Of a stretch of 21,237 bases of DNA, positions 333 through 21,174 are shown piece after piece (positions within the stretch are counted from its first letter, which is position 1; each line of letters starts with the position of its first letter). A model generated the notes under the pieces. That model searched no databases, had not been told where the DNA came from, and saw only the letters and a program-made list of their open reading frames with translations. The DNA lies in the IMG/VR virus record IMGVR_UViG_3300043469_002327, positions 1 through 21,237 of that record; one strand, 5' to 3'. The DNA comes from a virus. The translations under genes and the position numbers were made by a program.

Positions 333-770
333 ATGCACGCCGCAGTTCGCACATCACTAGCCTACTATCTCGCTGCGCTTCCCGCGCTGGCGGATGTGGG
401 CGCGTCGGTGCACTGGCGCATGGCTCCTCAATCAGCATCGCTGCCACTTGTTTTGCTCACCCTCGTTTCTGATCTTCGCCTAGTAAACCACCAAGGCGCT
501 AATCGGTGGGCCAACGCGGTAATCCAAGTAGACGCATTCGCCACGGATGCGGGGGCCTCAGAAACCCTGCGTGATGCGGTAATAGATGCGCTGCACGGAT
601 TCCGTGGGACCATAGGGTTTGCCTCATTTGGTCCTGTTTTGCATGCGGCAAGCAGGGAGGATGATAGTTTTGCCCCGGACCGCTTCCGCAGTTCATGCGA
701 CATCCAGGCGACCTACAGCCCTAGCGACGGCAATTTATTCGCCCTTAATCCCATCGTCGCCACTCCATGA
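333..770 (+). CDS. Tail terminator-like protein (DUF3168-like tail completion)
   Basis: 145 residues. The N-terminus (Y-L-A-A-L-P-A-L around residues 12-19), a central hydrophobic strand PLVLLTLVS, a second strand ANAVIQVDAFA, and a helix with ETLRDAVIDALHGFRGTIG match the alpha/beta plan of DUF3168 / lambda gpU-type tail terminator proteins. These form a ring that ends tail-tube growth and contacts the head. The length is normal for the family. It starts immediately after the previous stop and overlaps the next gene by ATGA at 767-770, so it is part of a coupled head-tail operon. It comes before the gp10-like gene, whereas many lambda-like genomes have the opposite order. Confidence 0.65.
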   Translation: MHAAVRTSLAYYLAALPALADVGASVHWRMAPQSASLPLVLLTLVSDLRLVNHQGANRWANAVIQVDAFATDAGASETLRDAVIDALHGFRGTIGFASFGPVLHAASREDDSFAPDRFRSSCDIQATYSPSDGNLFALNPIVATP

Positions 771-1312
771 TTAAATTTAAAATCACTGGCGAAGCGGAAA
801 TGGCCAAGGCGCTGCAAGGGCTGCCGTCTAAAATCAAAAAGGACGTGGCCTTTGCGGCTATGGTGGCAGCTGTACAGCCCACCGTTTTAGCCGCCAAGGC
901 GCTTGCCCCCGTCGGTGAGACTGGCGAACTCAAGAAGTCCATCGGCTTCGTTGTTCGCCAATACCGCCGTGGAGATGTCACCTATGGGATTATCGGTGCA
1001 CGCCGTGGCTTTGGCACCAAGAAGACTGACCCCGCCAAGTATGCCCACCTCGTGGAGTTCGGCCATGCGATAGCCGTAGGCGGCAAACTCTTTCGCGGGG
1101 TTAACCCATTCAAAAACGTGAAGGCAACCGGCGTGCTGGCTGGGTTTGTGGCGCCGCGCCCATTCCTTCGCCCGGCATGGGAGGCCACCAAAACCGAGGT
1201 GATCGCCATTCTTTCGCGCGTGCTTGGCCAAGGCATCGAGGCCGCAGTTGCCAAGCAGTCGAAGTCCATAGCCAAGCGCAATGCCCGCATGCTGATGAAC
1301 ACGAATGCCTGA
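767..1312 (+). CDS. HK97 gp10-like head-tail/tail protein
   Basis: 181 residues. The N-terminal pattern (FKITGEAEMAKALQGLPSKI, then a basic helix, then LAKALAP-VGETGELKKSI) is the signature of HK97 gp10-type proteins: a strand, a helix and a TG.L..SI motif around residues 47-55. The middle contains YAHLVEFGHA and the C-terminal part RPFLRPAWEATK, both recurrent in the family. The family acts at the head-tail junction or in tail completion. Its ATG overlaps the previous stop (ATGA). The last 30 residues are basic (AKQSKSIAKRNARM). A 44-bp gap follows before the tail tube gene, the first non-overlapping junction in this operon. Confidence 0.8.
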   Translation: MIKFKITGEAEMAKALQGLPSKIKKDVAFAAMVAAVQPTVLAAKALAPVGETGELKKSIGFVVRQYRRGDVTYGIIGARRGFGTKKTDPAKYAHLVEFGHAIAVGGKLFRGVNPFKNVKATGVLAGFVAPRPFLRPAWEATKTEVIAILSRVLGQGIEAAVAKQSKSIAKRNARMLMNTNA

Positions 1313-1356: not shown

Positions 1357-1764
1357 ATGGCCACTCCTACCTTTGGCGCTAAAATCGAAATCTGGACCGG
1401 CGCAGCTTACGTCCTGATTGCGGGCGCGAATCAAATCAAGAACCCGCGCATCCAAATGGATGACCCGCTCCCCGTGCTCACCCAAGACATGACGGACGGC
1501 ATCGCCACGCTGGTGCACCCCAAGACCTACAAGTGGTCAGACGGCTCGTGCACCCTCGACCAGATCCCAGCTGATGCCGGTCAGGTCGCTCTCATCGCTG
1601 CGGCGGCCGGCACAGCCTTGACCAAGTTCAAGTTCACCCGGGTCGGCGTCGCCGCGGTGATCGTCAATGCCTTCGTTAAAATCGAGGACGGCGAGGACGG
1701 CGTGAATGGGCTTCAAACCATCTCAGTGACCTTCCAGTGCTCGGGTGCCTCCCCTGTTTCCTGA
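1357..1764 (+). CDS. Major tail tube protein
   Basis: 135 residues. It lies between the gp10-like gene and the frameshifted chaperone gene, the invariant place of the tail tube gene in lambda-like phages. It is rich in beta strands (GAKIEIWTGAAYVLIAG, FKFTRVGVAAVIVNAFVKIED) and ends in a strand, LQTISVTFQCSG, that is typical of tube-domain proteins forming stacked hexameric rings. The size agrees with small tail tube proteins of 130-150 residues. The leader is A/C-rich without a Shine-Dalgarno sequence, suggesting a separately initiated, strongly expressed message. The stop TGA shares its A with the ATG of the next gene. The assignment rests on order and fold-like pattern rather than on a diagnostic motif. 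Confidence 0.7.
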   Translation: MATPTFGAKIEIWTGAAYVLIAGANQIKNPRIQMDDPLPVLTQDMTDGIATLVHPKTYKWSDGSCTLDQIPADAGQVALIAAAAGTALTKFKFTRVGVAAVIVNAFVKIEDGEDGVNGLQTISVTFQCSGASPVS

Positions 1765-2075
1765 TGTCTCCCCTGCCTAAAGTTACGGCGCAGGTCGGCG
1801 GCGCTGAGCTGGTTCTCTCGTGGAACCGGCTCGCCCGCTACCGGCTGAGCACGCTCGGGGATGCCGACACCGGGGCCTATGCCGCGATGATCAATATCCT
1901 CTGGGCTGCCGACACCACGCGCACCTACCCGACGCCCGAGGCTATCCTCGCCGTGCTCACCGATGACGAGGAGCCGCTCGCACTCGCTGCCGTGCAGGGG
2001 CTCATCAAAGAGCAGGACGATAAAAAAAAAGCCTCCTCAGTGACTGGGCCTTTGCCCGCTACGACCTCGGCCTGA
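1764..2075 (+). CDS. Tail assembly chaperone, short form (gpG-like)
   Basis: 103 residues from the ATG at 1764, which shares one base with the tail tube stop. It is an acidic, helical protein (TDDEEPLALAAVQGLIKEQDDKKK) between tail tube and tape measure, where lambda encodes gpG. Near the end it runs through nine A residues (2022-2030) decoded as three Lys codons, and then continues for only about 14 residues before a stop. The sequence after the A-run in this frame looks unstructured, while the -1 frame encodes a well-formed domain. The short form is therefore likely the G-type chaperone that coats the tape measure during tail assembly. An earlier in-frame codon at 1737 lies inside the tail tube gene and is less likely. 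Confidence 0.75.
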   Translation: MSPLPKVTAQVGGAELVLSWNRLARYRLSTLGDADTGAYAAMINILWAADTTRTYPTPEAILAVLTDDEEPLALAAVQGLIKEQDDKKKASSVTGPLPATTSA

Positions 2076-2323
2076 GTACCGACGAATGGAGCACCCTCGG
2101 TGAGCGCGAACTGAGCGCGCTCACCGATCGCCACATAGCCCACCTAAAAAACATCCGCGACCACTTCGCCCAGCTCAGCGCGCTTCTCTGCAACCTGCAC
2201 GGCGCAACGCCTCCCGCTGGATCCCGAGTGTGGACCTCATCGCACTTTATTCCCGAGTCACCCAATCGCCGCTCGTTCGCTGAAATCGCCGCTGTTTACG
2301 GAGTGAAACCCGAAACCCCATGA
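1764..2323 (+). CDS. Tail assembly chaperone, -1 frameshift fusion (gpGT-like)
   Basis: A -1 slip within the A-run at 2022-2030 joins the first 89 codons of the short form to an open frame that has no start codon of its own and runs from 2030 to the TGA at 2321-2323. The fusion is about 186 residues. The added T-part begins SLLSDWAFARYDLG and contains W-S-T-L-GERELSALTDRH, ALLCNLHGA and a late F-I-P-E-S-P motif, consistent with the C-terminal domains of phage GT proteins. Its stop overlaps the tape measure start (ATGA at 2320), as expected for lambda-type G/GT-H gene order. A GGGC/GCCC hairpin lies 15 bases after the A-run. Frameshifting is inferred from the sequence and the known family mechanism. 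Confidence 0.75.
2022..2057 (+). promoter_or_regulatory. Programmed -1 frameshift site
   Basis: Nine A residues (2022-2030) are in frame as AAA AAA AAA. The heptamer A AAA AAA at 2024-2030 fits the X XXY YYZ rule for -1 slippage. A short hairpin GGGC-CTTT-GCCC at 2046-2057 lies downstream and may act as a stimulator. The -1 frame stays open for 97 codons. Confidence 0.75.
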
Positions 2324-4831: not shown

Positions 4832-6787
4832 ATGGCGATTTCATGGCAAAGAACCGTAGCGGGCCAGCAGCCTTGGGTATCCCAGATAAGCCAAGTTACC
4901 AGCCGATCGGGCACGGCGATTGGCGGGGTTGGGACAATATCGAGCACCTCGGCATCAAGCGCATACAGCGTAGGGAATGCCTCCAGCGCGACAGGCTTTT
5001 CTTCTGGGACGAGCAGTTTGTACAGCGTGTTTGGCACATCCCAGACAGAATCAGCTAACGGTAACACCGCCAGCGCCTTCGGAGCGTCAAATATCGGAGG
5101 TGGATTCGGTACAACTACATACAGTTACTCGTCCACCTACGCTGGTACCGCCACCTTTACCCGTACCAGCGCGCCCACTACGTCTTCCGGCAGTAACAGA
5201 TCCTCGGGCAGCTTAAGCCATGAAGTCACCAGAAACCTCGTCGGAAATAACTGGTCGCAGACCATCCGCGACACCACCTGTAACTTCGGGATTACCACGA
5301 CAAGCTCAACCACCTCGTCTGGGGTTGCTTCCGCTGCTTACACTTCGGGCACCAGTTCATCAGCGATAGTGGATTACCGAGCCCAGAGTACGACCCAGAC
5401 CACGACCCGCTCGATCATCACCAAGCACTCGGTTTCCAGCTTATCCAGCACCACCACCGAGAGCCAGACGTACACTGAGACACTCCAGACCTACGAAACA
5501 GTTAATACAACAACTAGGAGCTATCTAACGGGCAGCTATATTGCGGGCGTAAACCACACGCAGTCGGTCTGGGAGGCCGAATACTCGGAGTTTCTCCGAG
5601 CTATAACCGCGTCACCCACTACGTTTACCGGGCTGGACGCGCTGCTGGGTGGCGCGTCACGGTCCCTGATCCAGAGCACGATGGGGGGTCAGTATTCTTA
5701 CGCAGCGGCCATAAGCCAGGCGTTCACTACGTTTACCTATTCGGTGGTGGCGGGTAGCGGGGTTCCGACCACGCTAACCACCACATTCCAGAGCTTCGTA
5801 CCCGTAACGTGGGGAGCTTCGGACGGCTGGGTCGGCGGGACCAACACTACCCTTGGCTATGTAGGCGGAATATACACCTCCGCGCAGGCCATGACAATCC
5901 AGCTCACCACCTCAGCCAACACCCTTACGACTCGGGGGCGAGCCACCTATACTACTCTCAGCCTAGTGGGTATCAGCTACATCCTAACCGACACGATTAC
6001 GGGGATAAACTCCGCAGGCAGTTCCGCGAGCTACGTCATCCAGCGGGTAGGCTCAACATTGTCTAAGTACACCTCGACCATCGTGGTTAACGATGGCGAG
6101 GTGAGTAGTTCATCGGTATACGGTTTCTCCGTCACCAAGTTTATCAGCCCAGCGTTATACTATAACTTCGGCCGCGCATCCGTAAAACTAAGCCGATTAG
6201 AAAAGGCGCTAGGTTACCAACATGCGTCCAGTCTTGGATCGGGAGGCGGCAGGGGCGTTTCGCTATCTGCAAACAGCAGCTTCTTCATCGGCACGGGCAA
6301 CTATATCATGTGCGACCCCAACGGGGTGCGCGTACCCGTCCCCTCCGTATCAACGGCATCAACTGCCGACTCGTCCTACAGTTTCACCCAAGGGCCTGCT
6401 GGCCAGTGGTCCGTAACCGCGCTGCGCACGGATGCCTCCAGCAGCACCCTCACTACGTTCACTGCGTCCGTCGGCACCACCGGGGCCACCGATCTATTCA
6501 TGAACCAGTACGCATCGTGGTATAATTCATCCAGCGGTAGCGTGATCGGCGGGGCCAATGCGCTATCCGGGATAAACCAGATAGCCACTTTCCACAACGT
6601 AGCGGGCTGGAAATACACGCTCAAGGACGCCTCCAGCACCACCGCGTTTACCACGCATCTCCCGGCCTACACCACGGCAAACATCGGCACCAGTCTGTTC
6701 GCAGGCGACTCGTTCAGCGCGGCCTCGGACATATCGGTAAATGCGGAATCTCCACTCGGCTTTATGACACTGCCATTCAATCAATGA
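4832..6787 (+). CDS. Large Ser/Thr-rich tail fibre/spike-like protein
   Basis: 651 residues. Roughly a third of the residues are Ser or Thr, often in runs (SSTTTESQTYTETLQTYET around 205-225), with Gly, Ala and Tyr between them and very few charged residues. The composition is that of a long beta-structured fibre or spike exposed on the virion. Two Cys occur far apart. No peptidase, lyase or collagen-like repeat was recognised. It is the largest gene of the tail module and sits at its end, the usual place of the receptor-binding fibre. Its TGA overlaps the ATG of a glycosyltransferase (ATGA at 6784). Such a Ser/Thr density would be a natural substrate for O-glycosylation, which is an inference. 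Confidence 0.6.
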   Translation: MAISWQRTVAGQQPWVSQISQVTSRSGTAIGGVGTISSTSASSAYSVGNASSATGFSSGTSSLYSVFGTSQTESANGNTASAFGASNIGGGFGTTTYSYSSTYAGTATFTRTSAPTTSSGSNRSSGSLSHEVTRNLVGNNWSQTIRDTTCNFGITTTSSTTSSGVASAAYTSGTSSSAIVDYRAQSTTQTTTRSIITKHSVSSLSSTTTESQTYTETLQTYETVNTTTRSYLTGSYIAGVNHTQSVWEAEYSEFLRAITASPTTFTGLDALLGGASRSLIQSTMGGQYSYAAAISQAFTTFTYSVVAGSGVPTTLTTTFQSFVPVTWGASDGWVGGTNTTLGYVGGIYTSAQAMTIQLTTSANTLTTRGRATYTTLSLVGISYILTDTITGINSAGSSASYVIQRVGSTLSKYTSTIVVNDGEVSSSSVYGFSVTKFISPALYYNFGRASVKLSRLEKALGYQHASSLGSGGGRGVSLSANSSFFIGTGNYIMCDPNGVRVPVPSVSTASTADSSYSFTQGPAGQWSVTALRTDASSSTLTTFTASVGTTGATDLFMNQYASWYNSSSGSVIGGANALSGINQIATFHNVAGWKYTLKDASSTTAFTTHLPAYTTANIGTSLFAGDSFSAASDISVNAESPLGFMTLPFNQ

Positions 6788-7812
6788 AACTCTCCATAAT
6801 CGTCTGCGCCACCCGTTCCTACACCTACGCCATGAAGGCTCAAGCCCGCCGCGTGAGCGCGTGCCTGCACATGGCCAAGGTCGAGTCGGCGCGCGTGTTC
6901 ATCGTCGGCGACAAATCCAAGGAGCTCGAATCCATCCGCGATTACTGGAAGGATGAGCTCCCAACCTGCGAAGTGGACCTCATCGCCGACAAGCGCTTTA
7001 TCGAAGGCCAATCGGCTAACTACAAACAGGCCGCGCAACTGCTCATCGCCGACATGCGTACGGTGGCCCACGCGGCCGCACGCCGAGTCGACTCCGATTG
7101 GTGTTGGTCGCTCGATAGCGACACGCTACCCCAGCCCAACGCACTGCGCTGCCTGTTCGATGCGTGCAGGTTCGACGGTGGCCACTACGCGGTGGCGATG
7201 TGCCCCTATCCCAACACGGCATTCTTGGGCGGCTTCGGCACGCCACAGAACCCCATCGCCGAAGACTTTCTTCCTCATGAGCGCGCGCTGCCTCCCCGCA
7301 TCAAGATGCTCTGGGAAACCAACGAGGCACGGCTCAAGGAGTGGAGCGCTCCCGATCGCCCCAACAAGCTGCTGGCCCGCCGCGATCGCCTGCACAAGCG
7401 GATCAAAGCCTGTCCCCCCGACGGCAATATCTGGCAAGTCACCGCCAAGCACGGCTGGCGTCGCCGCGGATGGCTGGATAGCGCGTATCCCGGCATCGGC
7501 CACGGCGCCATGGTGCCGACTGATTGGGTGGGCTTTGGCTGCACGCTCATGAACCGCCAAGCGCTCGCCCTGGCACACTTCGAGGGCTACGACGGCCAAG
7601 GCACCGAGGATCTGTTCATCGGCTGGCACCGCTGGATCCCGGCCGGCCTGCGCATGGCGGTGCTGCCGCATTGCCCAGCCGACCACGTTATCAACGATAA
7701 GAAAAAGGGCGGAGAGGAGATTAAGTACGTACTCCACCACGTGCACCACGAGCAGAGCGGCGAATGCGTCGGCCATCTGCGCGTGCGCCAAGTGCCCTGG
7801 CGTGTGGAGTGA
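6784..7812 (+). CDS. GT-A fold glycosyltransferase, phage-encoded
   Basis: 342 residues. The N-terminus KLSIIVCATR is the nucleotide-binding first strand of GT-A enzymes. Residues 103-117 (VDSDWCWSLDSDTLP) hold a hydrophobic strand ending in a DxD motif (D111-x-D113) that binds the metal and nucleotide sugar. VGFGCTLMNRQAL (249-261) resembles the acceptor-side segment of GT2-like enzymes, and GTEDLFIGWH (273-282) contains the Glu-Asp pair often serving as catalytic base. His-rich residues near the C-terminus (HHVHHEQ) could add metal contacts. It has no signal or TM segment, so it is cytosolic. Translational coupling to the Ser/Thr-rich fibre suggests it decorates that fibre or another virion protein; host surface modification is the alternative. 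Confidence 0.7.
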   Translation: MKLSIIVCATRSYTYAMKAQARRVSACLHMAKVESARVFIVGDKSKELESIRDYWKDELPTCEVDLIADKRFIEGQSANYKQAAQLLIADMRTVAHAAARRVDSDWCWSLDSDTLPQPNALRCLFDACRFDGGHYAVAMCPYPNTAFLGGFGTPQNPIAEDFLPHERALPPRIKMLWETNEARLKEWSAPDRPNKLLARRDRLHKRIKACPPDGNIWQVTAKHGWRRRGWLDSAYPGIGHGAMVPTDWVGFGCTLMNRQALALAHFEGYDGQGTEDLFIGWHRWIPAGLRMAVLPHCPADHVINDKKKGGEEIKYVLHHVHHEQSGECVGHLRVRQVPWRVE

Positions 7813-7816
7813 TAAA

Positions 7817-7860
7817 TAAACAGGCTGGGTGTAATCGTGTTTAAATCGACAGCCTGTTTA
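7817..7860 (+). terminator. Long inverted repeat after the tail operon
   Basis: TAAACAGGCTG at 7817-7827 pairs perfectly with CAGCCTGTTTA at 7850-7860, an 11-bp stem with a 22-nt loop, five bases after the glycosyltransferase stop. It has no long T-tract, so it is either an imperfect terminator or an mRNA-end stabilising stem-loop at the end of the structural operon. Confidence 0.5.
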
Positions 7861-8530: not shown

Positions 8531-8618
8531 GTGTATGAGAGGAGAAAACAGGGGTTTAGAGCCCCTTCTTCAATTTGGGCAAGTTGGCAGTAATTCACCG
8601 ATTTTCGCCGGTTTTCTT

Positions 8619-8644
8619 GATTCTCGCCAAGATTCTCGCCAACT
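8619..8644. repeat. Tandem integrase arm-type sites (right arm)
   Basis: GATTCTCGCCAA occurs twice head to tail at 8619-8630 and 8631-8642, the second continuing as CT. They match the inverted sites at 8422-8455. Degenerate relatives lie at 8582-8594 (AGTTGGC...) and 8601-8611 (ATTTTCGCCGG). Their position just upstream of the likely integrase ATG would also allow autoregulation. Confidence 0.65.
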
Positions 8645-8651
8645 GTACGGC

Positions 8652-9863
8652 ATGGCCCGACACCGCGAGAATCTGCTCCGCATAATCCCGCTCGCCGGCG
8701 GCTCATGGCTCCTTGATGGATTCCATCTCGGTAAGCGTATCAGGAAACAGGGGCGCGACGTCAACGCGCTGCGCGTGAAGATGCAGGAAATGCAGGCCGT
8801 GCTCACGCAGGCTACCGAAAACATCATGGCTCCGCGCATGACCAGGCTCACCGAGGCCCAGCTCCGCGATGCCGAGGCCGCAGTGGAGCGGGCAGGGGGG
8901 CGCTCGCTACTCTCCTGCGTGATCGCCTCCGACCGCGTCATGGTCAAGGGCGACCCCGTTGCCCTTAACTTTGCCCTTAAAGATTGGCTTGCTCATCAAG
9001 CCGAGCGTGGCCGGCAGAAGGACACGATGGAGAATAACCTAGGGCGGTCCCGCGCTTTCATCGCCTGGCTGGCTGATCAGGGCATCACCACCGTGGGCGC
9101 CGTGACCCCCGAGCACTACGAATCCTTCGTTTACCGCGGTAAACGCGCCGATTTCACGCGCAAAAACGACGCCTCCGTCCTCCAAGCCTGGGCAAACCAC
9201 TGGAAAAAGCGCCGCTGGGTTAAGGAAATCCCCTTCGAGGTAGACACCAAAGACCTGAGCAGCCGCGCCCGCTCCGTCGATTTGCCGCGTATTTTGACGC
9301 CGGGACAGGCCCACGCACTACTTGCGGCCGCAAAAGCCCGTGGCGGCGCGCGGTTGGCGGCCTACGTTGCGCTGGCGTGCTGGTGTTTTGCCCGCCATGC
9401 GGAGGTTTTACGGGTTTCGACTGACGACCTGAAGCTCGACGGCAAGATTCCGGTGGTCGAGATCCGGCCGCGAAAGCGCGGCACGGTGAGTTATCGGGCA
9501 GTGACCGTGCCCGCGTGCGTTCTGCAGGTTCTGCGCGATGCGAAGGCGGAGGCGGTGGCAGCGCATGAGGCTGAGAAGCTGCCGCCTGGGCCCGTCGTCT
9601 CATGGGGCCGCGTGCGCTGGGGCGCTGTGCGGGAAGTAGCTGGCCTGGCTGAGCGTGGGGCCATCGCCAACAAAAAGCGCCCGGTGCATTCGGCGATCTG
9701 GCAAGAAAACATCCTGCGCCATACCGGCCTGTCCTACTTTTTCCAGAAATCGGGAGACATCACCGAGACCTGCCGACAGGCGGGCAACTCATCGTCTACG
9801 GCATTCGCGCATTATTTGAACCTGCCAGTTGAGGGGGCGTCTGAGGCGTTTTTTGGGGCCTGA
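8652..9863 (+). CDS. int: Tyrosine recombinase integrase
   Basis: 403 residues from the ATG at 8652. The frame stays open to 8535, but the extra 39 codons would translate the arm-site repeats (DSRQDSRQ), so the shorter start is preferred; neither start has a clear Shine-Dalgarno sequence. Residues about 95-185 form an SAM-like core-binding domain (ALKDWLAHQAERGRQ, then AFIAWLADQGI). The catalytic domain has Arg-I in CFARHAEVLRV (R248, E251), the beta-hairpin Lys in RPRKRGTV (K275), Arg-II in NILRHTG (R356) and the nucleophile in AFAHYLN (Y388). The usual His of HxxR is Asn, and the His/Trp before the Tyr is also Asn (AGNSS). It mediates integration at the adjacent tRNA-Thr attP. Confidence 0.9.
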   Translation: MARHRENLLRIIPLAGGSWLLDGFHLGKRIRKQGRDVNALRVKMQEMQAVLTQATENIMAPRMTRLTEAQLRDAEAAVERAGGRSLLSCVIASDRVMVKGDPVALNFALKDWLAHQAERGRQKDTMENNLGRSRAFIAWLADQGITTVGAVTPEHYESFVYRGKRADFTRKNDASVLQAWANHWKKRRWVKEIPFEVDTKDLSSRARSVDLPRILTPGQAHALLAAAKARGGARLAAYVALACWCFARHAEVLRVSTDDLKLDGKIPVVEIRPRKRGTVSYRAVTVPACVLQVLRDAKAEAVAAHEAEKLPPGPVVSWGRVRWGAVREVAGLAERGAIANKKRPVHSAIWQENILRHTGLSYFFQKSGDITETCRQAGNSSSTAFAHYLNLPVEGASEAFFGA

Positions 9864-16239: not shown

Positions 16240-16455
16240 ATGGCCACCATCTCACAAACCGGCCACCGCACGATCGAGCGCGCCCTCGCCTGCGGTTGGA
16301 CCCACGGCAACGGACTGTTCGGCCCCGGCCGCTTCCTGAAGCTCTCCAAAGCCGACCGCAAAAAATACCTGACGAACCAAGCCCGCAAGGCCAAGGCGTC
16401 AAACGGCTGGGTGCCGGTCAAGATCGTGCCCGAGATTGAGGAGGCGTCCGCTTGA
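16240..16455 (+). CDS. Small basic protein of unknown function (71 aa)
   Basis: 71 residues from the ATG two bases after the SSB-like stop; an in-frame ATG at 16219 would overlap the SSB tail and is less likely. It is basic, with Gly-rich turns (CGWTHGNGLFGPGRFLKLSK) and a lysine-rich helix (ADRKKYLTNQARKAKASN). No motif is recognised. Its stop overlaps the TTG start of the SF2 helicase (TTGA), so it may be a helicase partner or a nucleic-acid-binding accessory protein. Confidence 0.45.
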   Translation: MATISQTGHRTIERALACGWTHGNGLFGPGRFLKLSKADRKKYLTNQARKAKASNGWVPVKIVPEIEEASA

Positions 16456-20739: not shown

Positions 20740-21174
20740 ATGGGAGCACGAGGACCAGCCCCGCACATCCCCGCCGGATCCGCCGCCCGCTCGGCTCCCG
20801 GTGTGCCGTGCGCCCCCGCCCACCTTTCGCCCTCCGCTGCCGACGAATACGGCCGCGTCGCCGTCCTGCTCAAAGATTCACTCCAGCACCACGACGCCGC
20901 TGTGCTCGCCGCCTACGCCGCCGCCTTCGATGAGGTCGCCACCTTCACCGAGCAGCTGCGCACCGAGGGGCACATCCTAAAATCAGCCACCGGCGGGCGC
21001 TACCTGCACCCCGCCCACGCCGCGCGCGCATCGGCCCATAAACTTCTGCTCGCCACTGCCACCCAGCTCGGGCTTTCCCCTGCCGCCCGTGCTCGCTTGG
21101 GCGCAGTCACCACACCCGCCGCACTCCCCGTGGGGCCTGAGTCTTTTAACGCCACCTACGGAACCGCCGCATGA
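20740..21174 (+). CDS. terS: Terminase small subunit (P27-like)
   Basis: 144 residues. It opens with GARGPAP, and has LSPSAADEYGRV, then D52 within SLQHHDAAVLAAYAAAF, then a helix (FTEQLRTEGHIL) and a C-terminal ATQLGLSPAARARLG. This series (G-x-x-GP at the start, a D-x-x-x-L-x-x-Y-A helix, and the ending LGLSPAAR-x-R-L-G) is the signature of P27-type small terminases. It recognises phage DNA and starts packaging with the large subunit. Size and motif order are normal. Its stop overlaps the next ATG. Confidence 0.85.
   Translation: MGARGPAPHIPAGSAARSAPGVPCAPAHLSPSAADEYGRVAVLLKDSLQHHDAAVLAAYAAAFDEVATFTEQLRTEGHILKSATGGRYLHPAHAARASAHKLLLATATQLGLSPAARARLGAVTTPAALPVGPESFNATYGTAA

Follow-up and report, generated by a model that had tools for sequence, protein, structure and literature searches.

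A probable G/GT-type tail chaperone pair with a run of nine adenines at its candidate slip site in a phage genome fragment

Tail chaperones made by frameshifting belong to textbook knowledge. As set out in passages of PMC5009743, the -1 frameshifting of the lambda G/GT pair is widely conserved, and in part of PMC3711429 shifting of 6 and 7% is given for two genes that belong to a cluster of tail chaperone genes. The same part of PMC3711429 counts A_AAA_AAA among the ribosomal slip sites and longer A runs among those of the polymerase; moreover, sections of both sources name nine A's or T's as a proven high-efficiency slip site of bacterial RNA polymerase, which is used by Thermus dnaX. Literature searches on tail chaperones with transcriptional slippage, on A-run sites in tail genes and on Verrucomicrobia phages with a tape measure and a frameshift, with subscription papers mostly outside their scope, returned general papers only or none.

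At positions 1764-2323 of the window, that is, the whole stretch of 21,237 bases of an IMG/VR virus record that was analysed, two overlapping frames are found whose layout is almost certainly that of G/GT. The whole statement, i.e., that they form a G/GT-type tail chaperone pair expressed by ribosomal -1 slippage on A_AAA_AAA, is considered likely.

Gene context and reading frames

The record begins with tail-completion genes and finishes at a small terminase gene (20740-21174), an integrase is located at 8535-9863, and no head genes were seen in window positions 1-21237; therefore, the window probably represents part of a temperate phage genome. The nearest helicase to that at 16452 is the one of Verrucomicrobia phage P8625 (35%), one Opitutae MAG locus being matched as well, and from this helicase the host phylum is probably Verrucomicrobiota. 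In phage P8625 itself, an unsplit ORF of 206 aa precedes the tape measure; its kinship to G or T was not established, and it was set aside.

The features of the tail region are collected in Table 1. The HK97 gp10-like gene fixes the tail-module context, and the tube and tape measure genes of the window are assigned mainly from position: the Pfam search with the tube ORF gave no match, nor did the Pfam and PHROG searches with the probable tape measure ORF. The length of a tail follows a rule of 0.15 nm per tape measure residue, by which a tape measure of only 387 aa would imply a short tail of about 58 nm.

Table 1. Features of the tail region of the window
Feature	Position	Strand	Basis
Tail completion gp17-like / tail terminator gene	333..770	+	Pfam PF11367, E 1.2e-5 (above cut-off); PHROG 347, E 2.1e-4
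HK97 gp10-like (neck/tail completion) gene	767..1312	+	Pfam PF04883, E 3.9e-8; PHROG 5, E 7.8e-24
Probable major tail (tube) protein ORF, 135 aa	1357..1764	+	Position; weak PHROG "major tail protein" match, E 0.028
G-like tail assembly chaperone ORF, 103 aa, zero frame	1764..2075	+	ATG 1764; stop TGA 2073-2075
TAA closing the -1 frame on the upstream side	2021..2023	+	Sequence
A9 run; A_AAA_AAA slip heptamer 2024-2030, in zero-frame phase	2022..2030	+	Sequence; A9 likewise placed in L009
-1 frame with T-like domain, 97 codons from 2030, stop TGA 2321-2323	2024..2323	+	Profile match; open frame 2024-2320
Small GGGC/GCCC hairpin, probably without function	2045..2058	+	-6.8 kcal/mol
Probable tape measure ORF, 387 aa	2320..3483	+	Position and sequence character; start (ATG 2320-2322) overlaps T stop as ATGA

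The zero frame is read across the A run as GAT AAA AAA AAA GCC. Since the TAA just before the run closes the -1 frame on its upstream side, a shift is required at 2024 or later, and since the zero frame continues to the TGA at 2073, the shift is confined to 49 bases. Within this permitted stretch, A_AAA_AAA is the sole in-phase heptamer of the XXXYYYZ type. No early start is present in the -1 frame; on reading the sequence, the first ATG, GTG or TTG is a GTG deep within the T-like domain. The initial annotation had described the nine A's, a startless -1 frame of 97 residues and its end on the tape measure start, and all of these coordinates agreed when recomputed. The A9 run is unique in the window on both strands (0.15 expected; at least one A9 in 9 of 100 shuffles). 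In addition, the G+C of the -1 frame by codon position (0.63/0.52/0.70) is similar to that of other window genes, and that of the zero frame across the same bases (0.52/0.70/0.64) is unlike them.

The T-like domain and its relatives

When a profile built without the window was scored against 315 open frames, the frame 2024-2320 was matched at E 4.1e-19, the next best frame reaching 1.6. The second IMG/VR scan described below selected for the motif A[RV]YDLGLS, so that every one of its 58 loci carries it, and the seed alignment included the window. Because this selection brings circularity, the match was repeated with the motif masked in the window, and the frame was still found at E 2.9e-8. 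As for the known T families, L008 passes the cut-offs of both Phage_tail_T (PF06223) and Phage_TAC_6 (PF09550), and the T domain of L009 scores 31.0 bits against Phage_tail_T, above the cut-off of 25.9; through these two loci the family is linked to T domains already described. The window domain alone obtains 12.9 bits, below the same Phage_tail_T cut-off. That is to say, the comparison of the -1 translation with T families proposed in the initial annotation gave a match by way of these two relatives, which the window joins through the profile. Alignment of the family profile with lambda T by hhalign gave no match. The AlphaFold2 model of the T-like domain is helical and good (pLDDT 83), a fold search with it returned no significant matches, and a profile match to HeliScrew4, a designed protein, was ignored.

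The G-like ORF is 34% identical (E 2.6e-4) to an ORF placed equally in the tail module of L004, which is the only locus that it matches. Pfam and PHROG searches with the window G gave no match; PHROG 2115, "tail protein", matches five of nine G frames, the window G not being among those five. There was also no match between lambda G and the family by hhalign, and the AlphaFold2 model of G (pLDDT 48) is too poor for a fold search.

Relatives were searched for in 387 genomes of the Opitutae-MAG phylum and in IMG/VR. In the former, T-domain matches were obtained at L005 and L007, both in one genome, and the G-domain match at L004 in another; one further match was discarded as unrelated. The gene order of L004 is a tail gene, G, a -1 frame and a long ORF, without a proper heptamer; its T-like frame, first spotted by position, was later matched alone (as L017, E 1.2e-6, with a profile lacking L017). 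In L005 and L007, an in-phase GGGAAAC is followed by a T-like domain read in the -1 frame, and L016, likewise from a genome of this phylum, has the site in the same place; a tail-tube-like gene and a short G (83 aa in L005) precede T at these loci. Beside the T of L005 no tape measure was seen, and an opposite-strand ORF resembling a sensor kinase comes next. L006 and L018, whose long ORFs appeared unrelated by eye, were dropped.

In the first IMG/VR scan with the domain alignment, seven loci were found, and in all seven the T-like domain is shifted by -1 relative to an upstream ORF. The second scan gave 58 loci, including the contigs of the first, and these together with the window, minus 12 near-identical rows, make up 47 distinct rows, from which L004/L017, L005, L007 and L016 were kept apart. 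By script, 46 of the 47, window included, have the T-like domain at -1 to an upstream ORF; the remaining row, L080, failed the script rule, and its T frame is -1 by eye. The order of a tail-tube-like gene, G, T and a tape-measure-like long ORF also occurs in L008, L011 and L012. At L009, an ORF (6754-7860) that we take to resemble a TnpB-type transposon protein lies between the chaperone pair and a tape-measure-like ORF of 922 aa. Five weak matches (L019, L020, L021, L023 and L025; E 7e-4 to 9e-3) have the -1 layout too and were excluded from the counts, as was L022 at a contig end. Among them, L019, L020, L021 and L023 form a more distant chaperone group with a DFNPY motif, in which G and T overlap by 181-340 bases and TTTTTTC/TTTCCCG stands in phase where a conserved FFP is encoded.

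Several other searches found nothing. With tblastn against 50,697 phage records, there were no matches for P0002, the tail tube ORF, the 270-aa ORF after the tape measure, or the T domains of L009 and L011. Likewise, viral-contig scans with G, the tape measure, the 270-aa ORF and the tube, a scan with a two-row G alignment, and an integrase search of the genome contigs gave no relative.

Slip heptamers and how the shift may occur

At 46 loci, the 100 bases that lead up to the T-like domain were scored for heptamers. XXXYYYZ occurs in phase 39 times at 943 positions and is present at 35 of the loci, the other 11 having none in this stretch; in each wrong phase there are 4 at 897 positions (3/46 and 4/46 loci), and the remaining parts of the G frames have 13 in phase at 4832. 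The sites are mostly non-homopolymeric, namely CCCAAAC (15), AAACCCT (13), CCCTTTN (5) and a few others, a composition that fits tandem tRNA slippage. A-run sites occur in the window (A9), L072, which is the same as L009 (A9, then G), and L066 (A6, AAAAAAC), so that A9, present in two rows, is a rare alternative site in the family. These two rows do not group on the T-domain tree: L072 is paired with L082, a row with CCCAAAC sites, and the window stands on a long branch in an unsure position. From this pairing, slip sites seem to turn over and the -1 layout to persist. A9 apparently arose by two changes on the tree, and a single origin could also account for it.

Taken together, the homology of the T-like domain, the -1 layout and the in-phase heptamers of the relatives identify the family as a lambda G/GT-type pair, and the GT-type chaperone with a -1 shift, as first annotated, is thus well supported by synteny, by the -1 T domain of the relatives and by their slip heptamers. 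On the observed frames, slip site, T-domain homology, gene order, conserved -1 layout and conserved in-phase heptamers, we infer that the shift occurs, that the ribosome slips rather than RNA polymerase, the rate of the shift and the chaperone action. Most ribosomes would read the zero frame and release the short G-like protein. In a minority of them, two lysine tRNAs on A_AAA_AAA would slip back by one base, and these ribosomes would go on in the -1 frame to make a G-T fusion of 186 aa ending on the tape measure start. By analogy with lambda, many copies of G may coat the tape measure, and a few copies of G-T may recruit the tail tube protein.

For the RNA around the site, the small GGGC/GCCC hairpin is indeed present, as had been pointed out, but there is no sign of a stimulator role: over the 60 bases that follow the slip site, predicted folding is not more stable than in shuffled sequences (z +0.6), so this hairpin is probably incidental. 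Upstream there is a short SD-like AGGA (2014-2017), which is absent in L009. A perfect 12-bp hairpin of around -21.5 kcal/mol lies in the T frame at 2097-2127, about 66 bases past the slip site, in one of just two places of the window with a stem of at least 10 bp and a loop of 3-10; it is too distant for a usual frameshift stimulator.

Since A_AAA_AAA is a known ribosomal slip site and nine A's are a known polymerase one, slipping of RNA polymerase on A9 has to be retained as a rival, by which some mRNAs would carry ten A's and give the G-T fusion by standard translation. It is judged unlikely, with appreciable weight left to it. An efficient bacterial site of the very length used by Thermus dnaX, as parts of PMC5009743 and PMC3711429 describe it, is consistent with polymerase slippage, as are the missing downstream stimulator and the TGA at 2041-2043 in the third frame, by which other slippage products remain short. 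However, most relatives have at this place non-homopolymeric in-phase heptamers, which a slipping polymerase does not need, the A run of the window is in exact heptamer phase, and the A9 of L072 pairs on the tree with the CCCAAAC of L082. Given the tandem-slip heptamers of the relatives, a ribosomal slip on A_AAA_AAA is more likely than a separate poly-A mechanism; of the initial proposal of a simple poly-A slip, the A9 run in place of the GGGAAAG of lambda stands, and the mechanism is more likely a ribosomal tandem slip like that of the relatives. If polymerase stuttering were at work, the pair apparently moved from tandem-slip heptamers to a transcriptional site more than once (window and L009); that the G/G-T ratio, and hence tail assembly, is set by such stuttering on A9 in this phage lineage is a slightly more doubtful proposition still.

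Far less probable is an error of assembly or sequencing, with a true run of A10 and G-T as one ordinary fused gene. Homopolymers are prone to error, and a second record of the exact window junction was not found in IMG/VR, so the length of A9 rests on one assembly; against this, the other distinct relatives hold the split -1 layout (L080 by eye), the independent record L009 has A9 in the same place, and the T-domain rows examined included no relative with G and T fused into one ORF. Finally, although 1506 of 20,000 dinucleotide shuffles (7.5%) also leave the -1 frame open over this length, which by itself is weak evidence, a chance open frame or a gene with its own start is scarcely credible against the window-free profile match, with and without the motif, and the lack of an early start codon.

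Comparison with known systems

By the pair described here, a divergent phage, probably of Verrucomicrobiota, joins the G/GT chaperones, and slip sites become comparable over dozens of relatives. Since one protein pair is found with CCCAAAC, AAACCCT, CCCTTTN, GGGAAAC or A9 in the same position, it offers a natural test of ribosomal versus transcriptional slippage. Moreover, such a gene would be missed or split by ordinary annotation.

Like lambda G/GT, the pair is located between the major tail gene and the tape measure, with the -1 shift late in G and the T stop overlapping the tape measure start, and the lambda slip site GGGAAAG is itself located in zero-frame phase. Unlike in lambda, the slip site of the window is A_AAA_AAA inside nine A's, sequence similarity to lambda G or T is not detectable, and both the T domain and the tape measure are shorter. 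With respect to Phage_tail_T and Phage_TAC_6, it is the relatives that pass the cut-offs, the window domain reaching about half of that of PF06223. Slipping on an A run is shared with Thermus dnaX (transcriptional slippage on A9) and E. coli dnaX (frameshifting on A_AAA_AAG), as given in parts of PMC5009743 and PMC3711429; however, the gene and function differ from those of the dnaX systems, and the -1 product of the window is longer, not shorter. The window pair is thus of the known G/GT kind, with an uncommon slip site.
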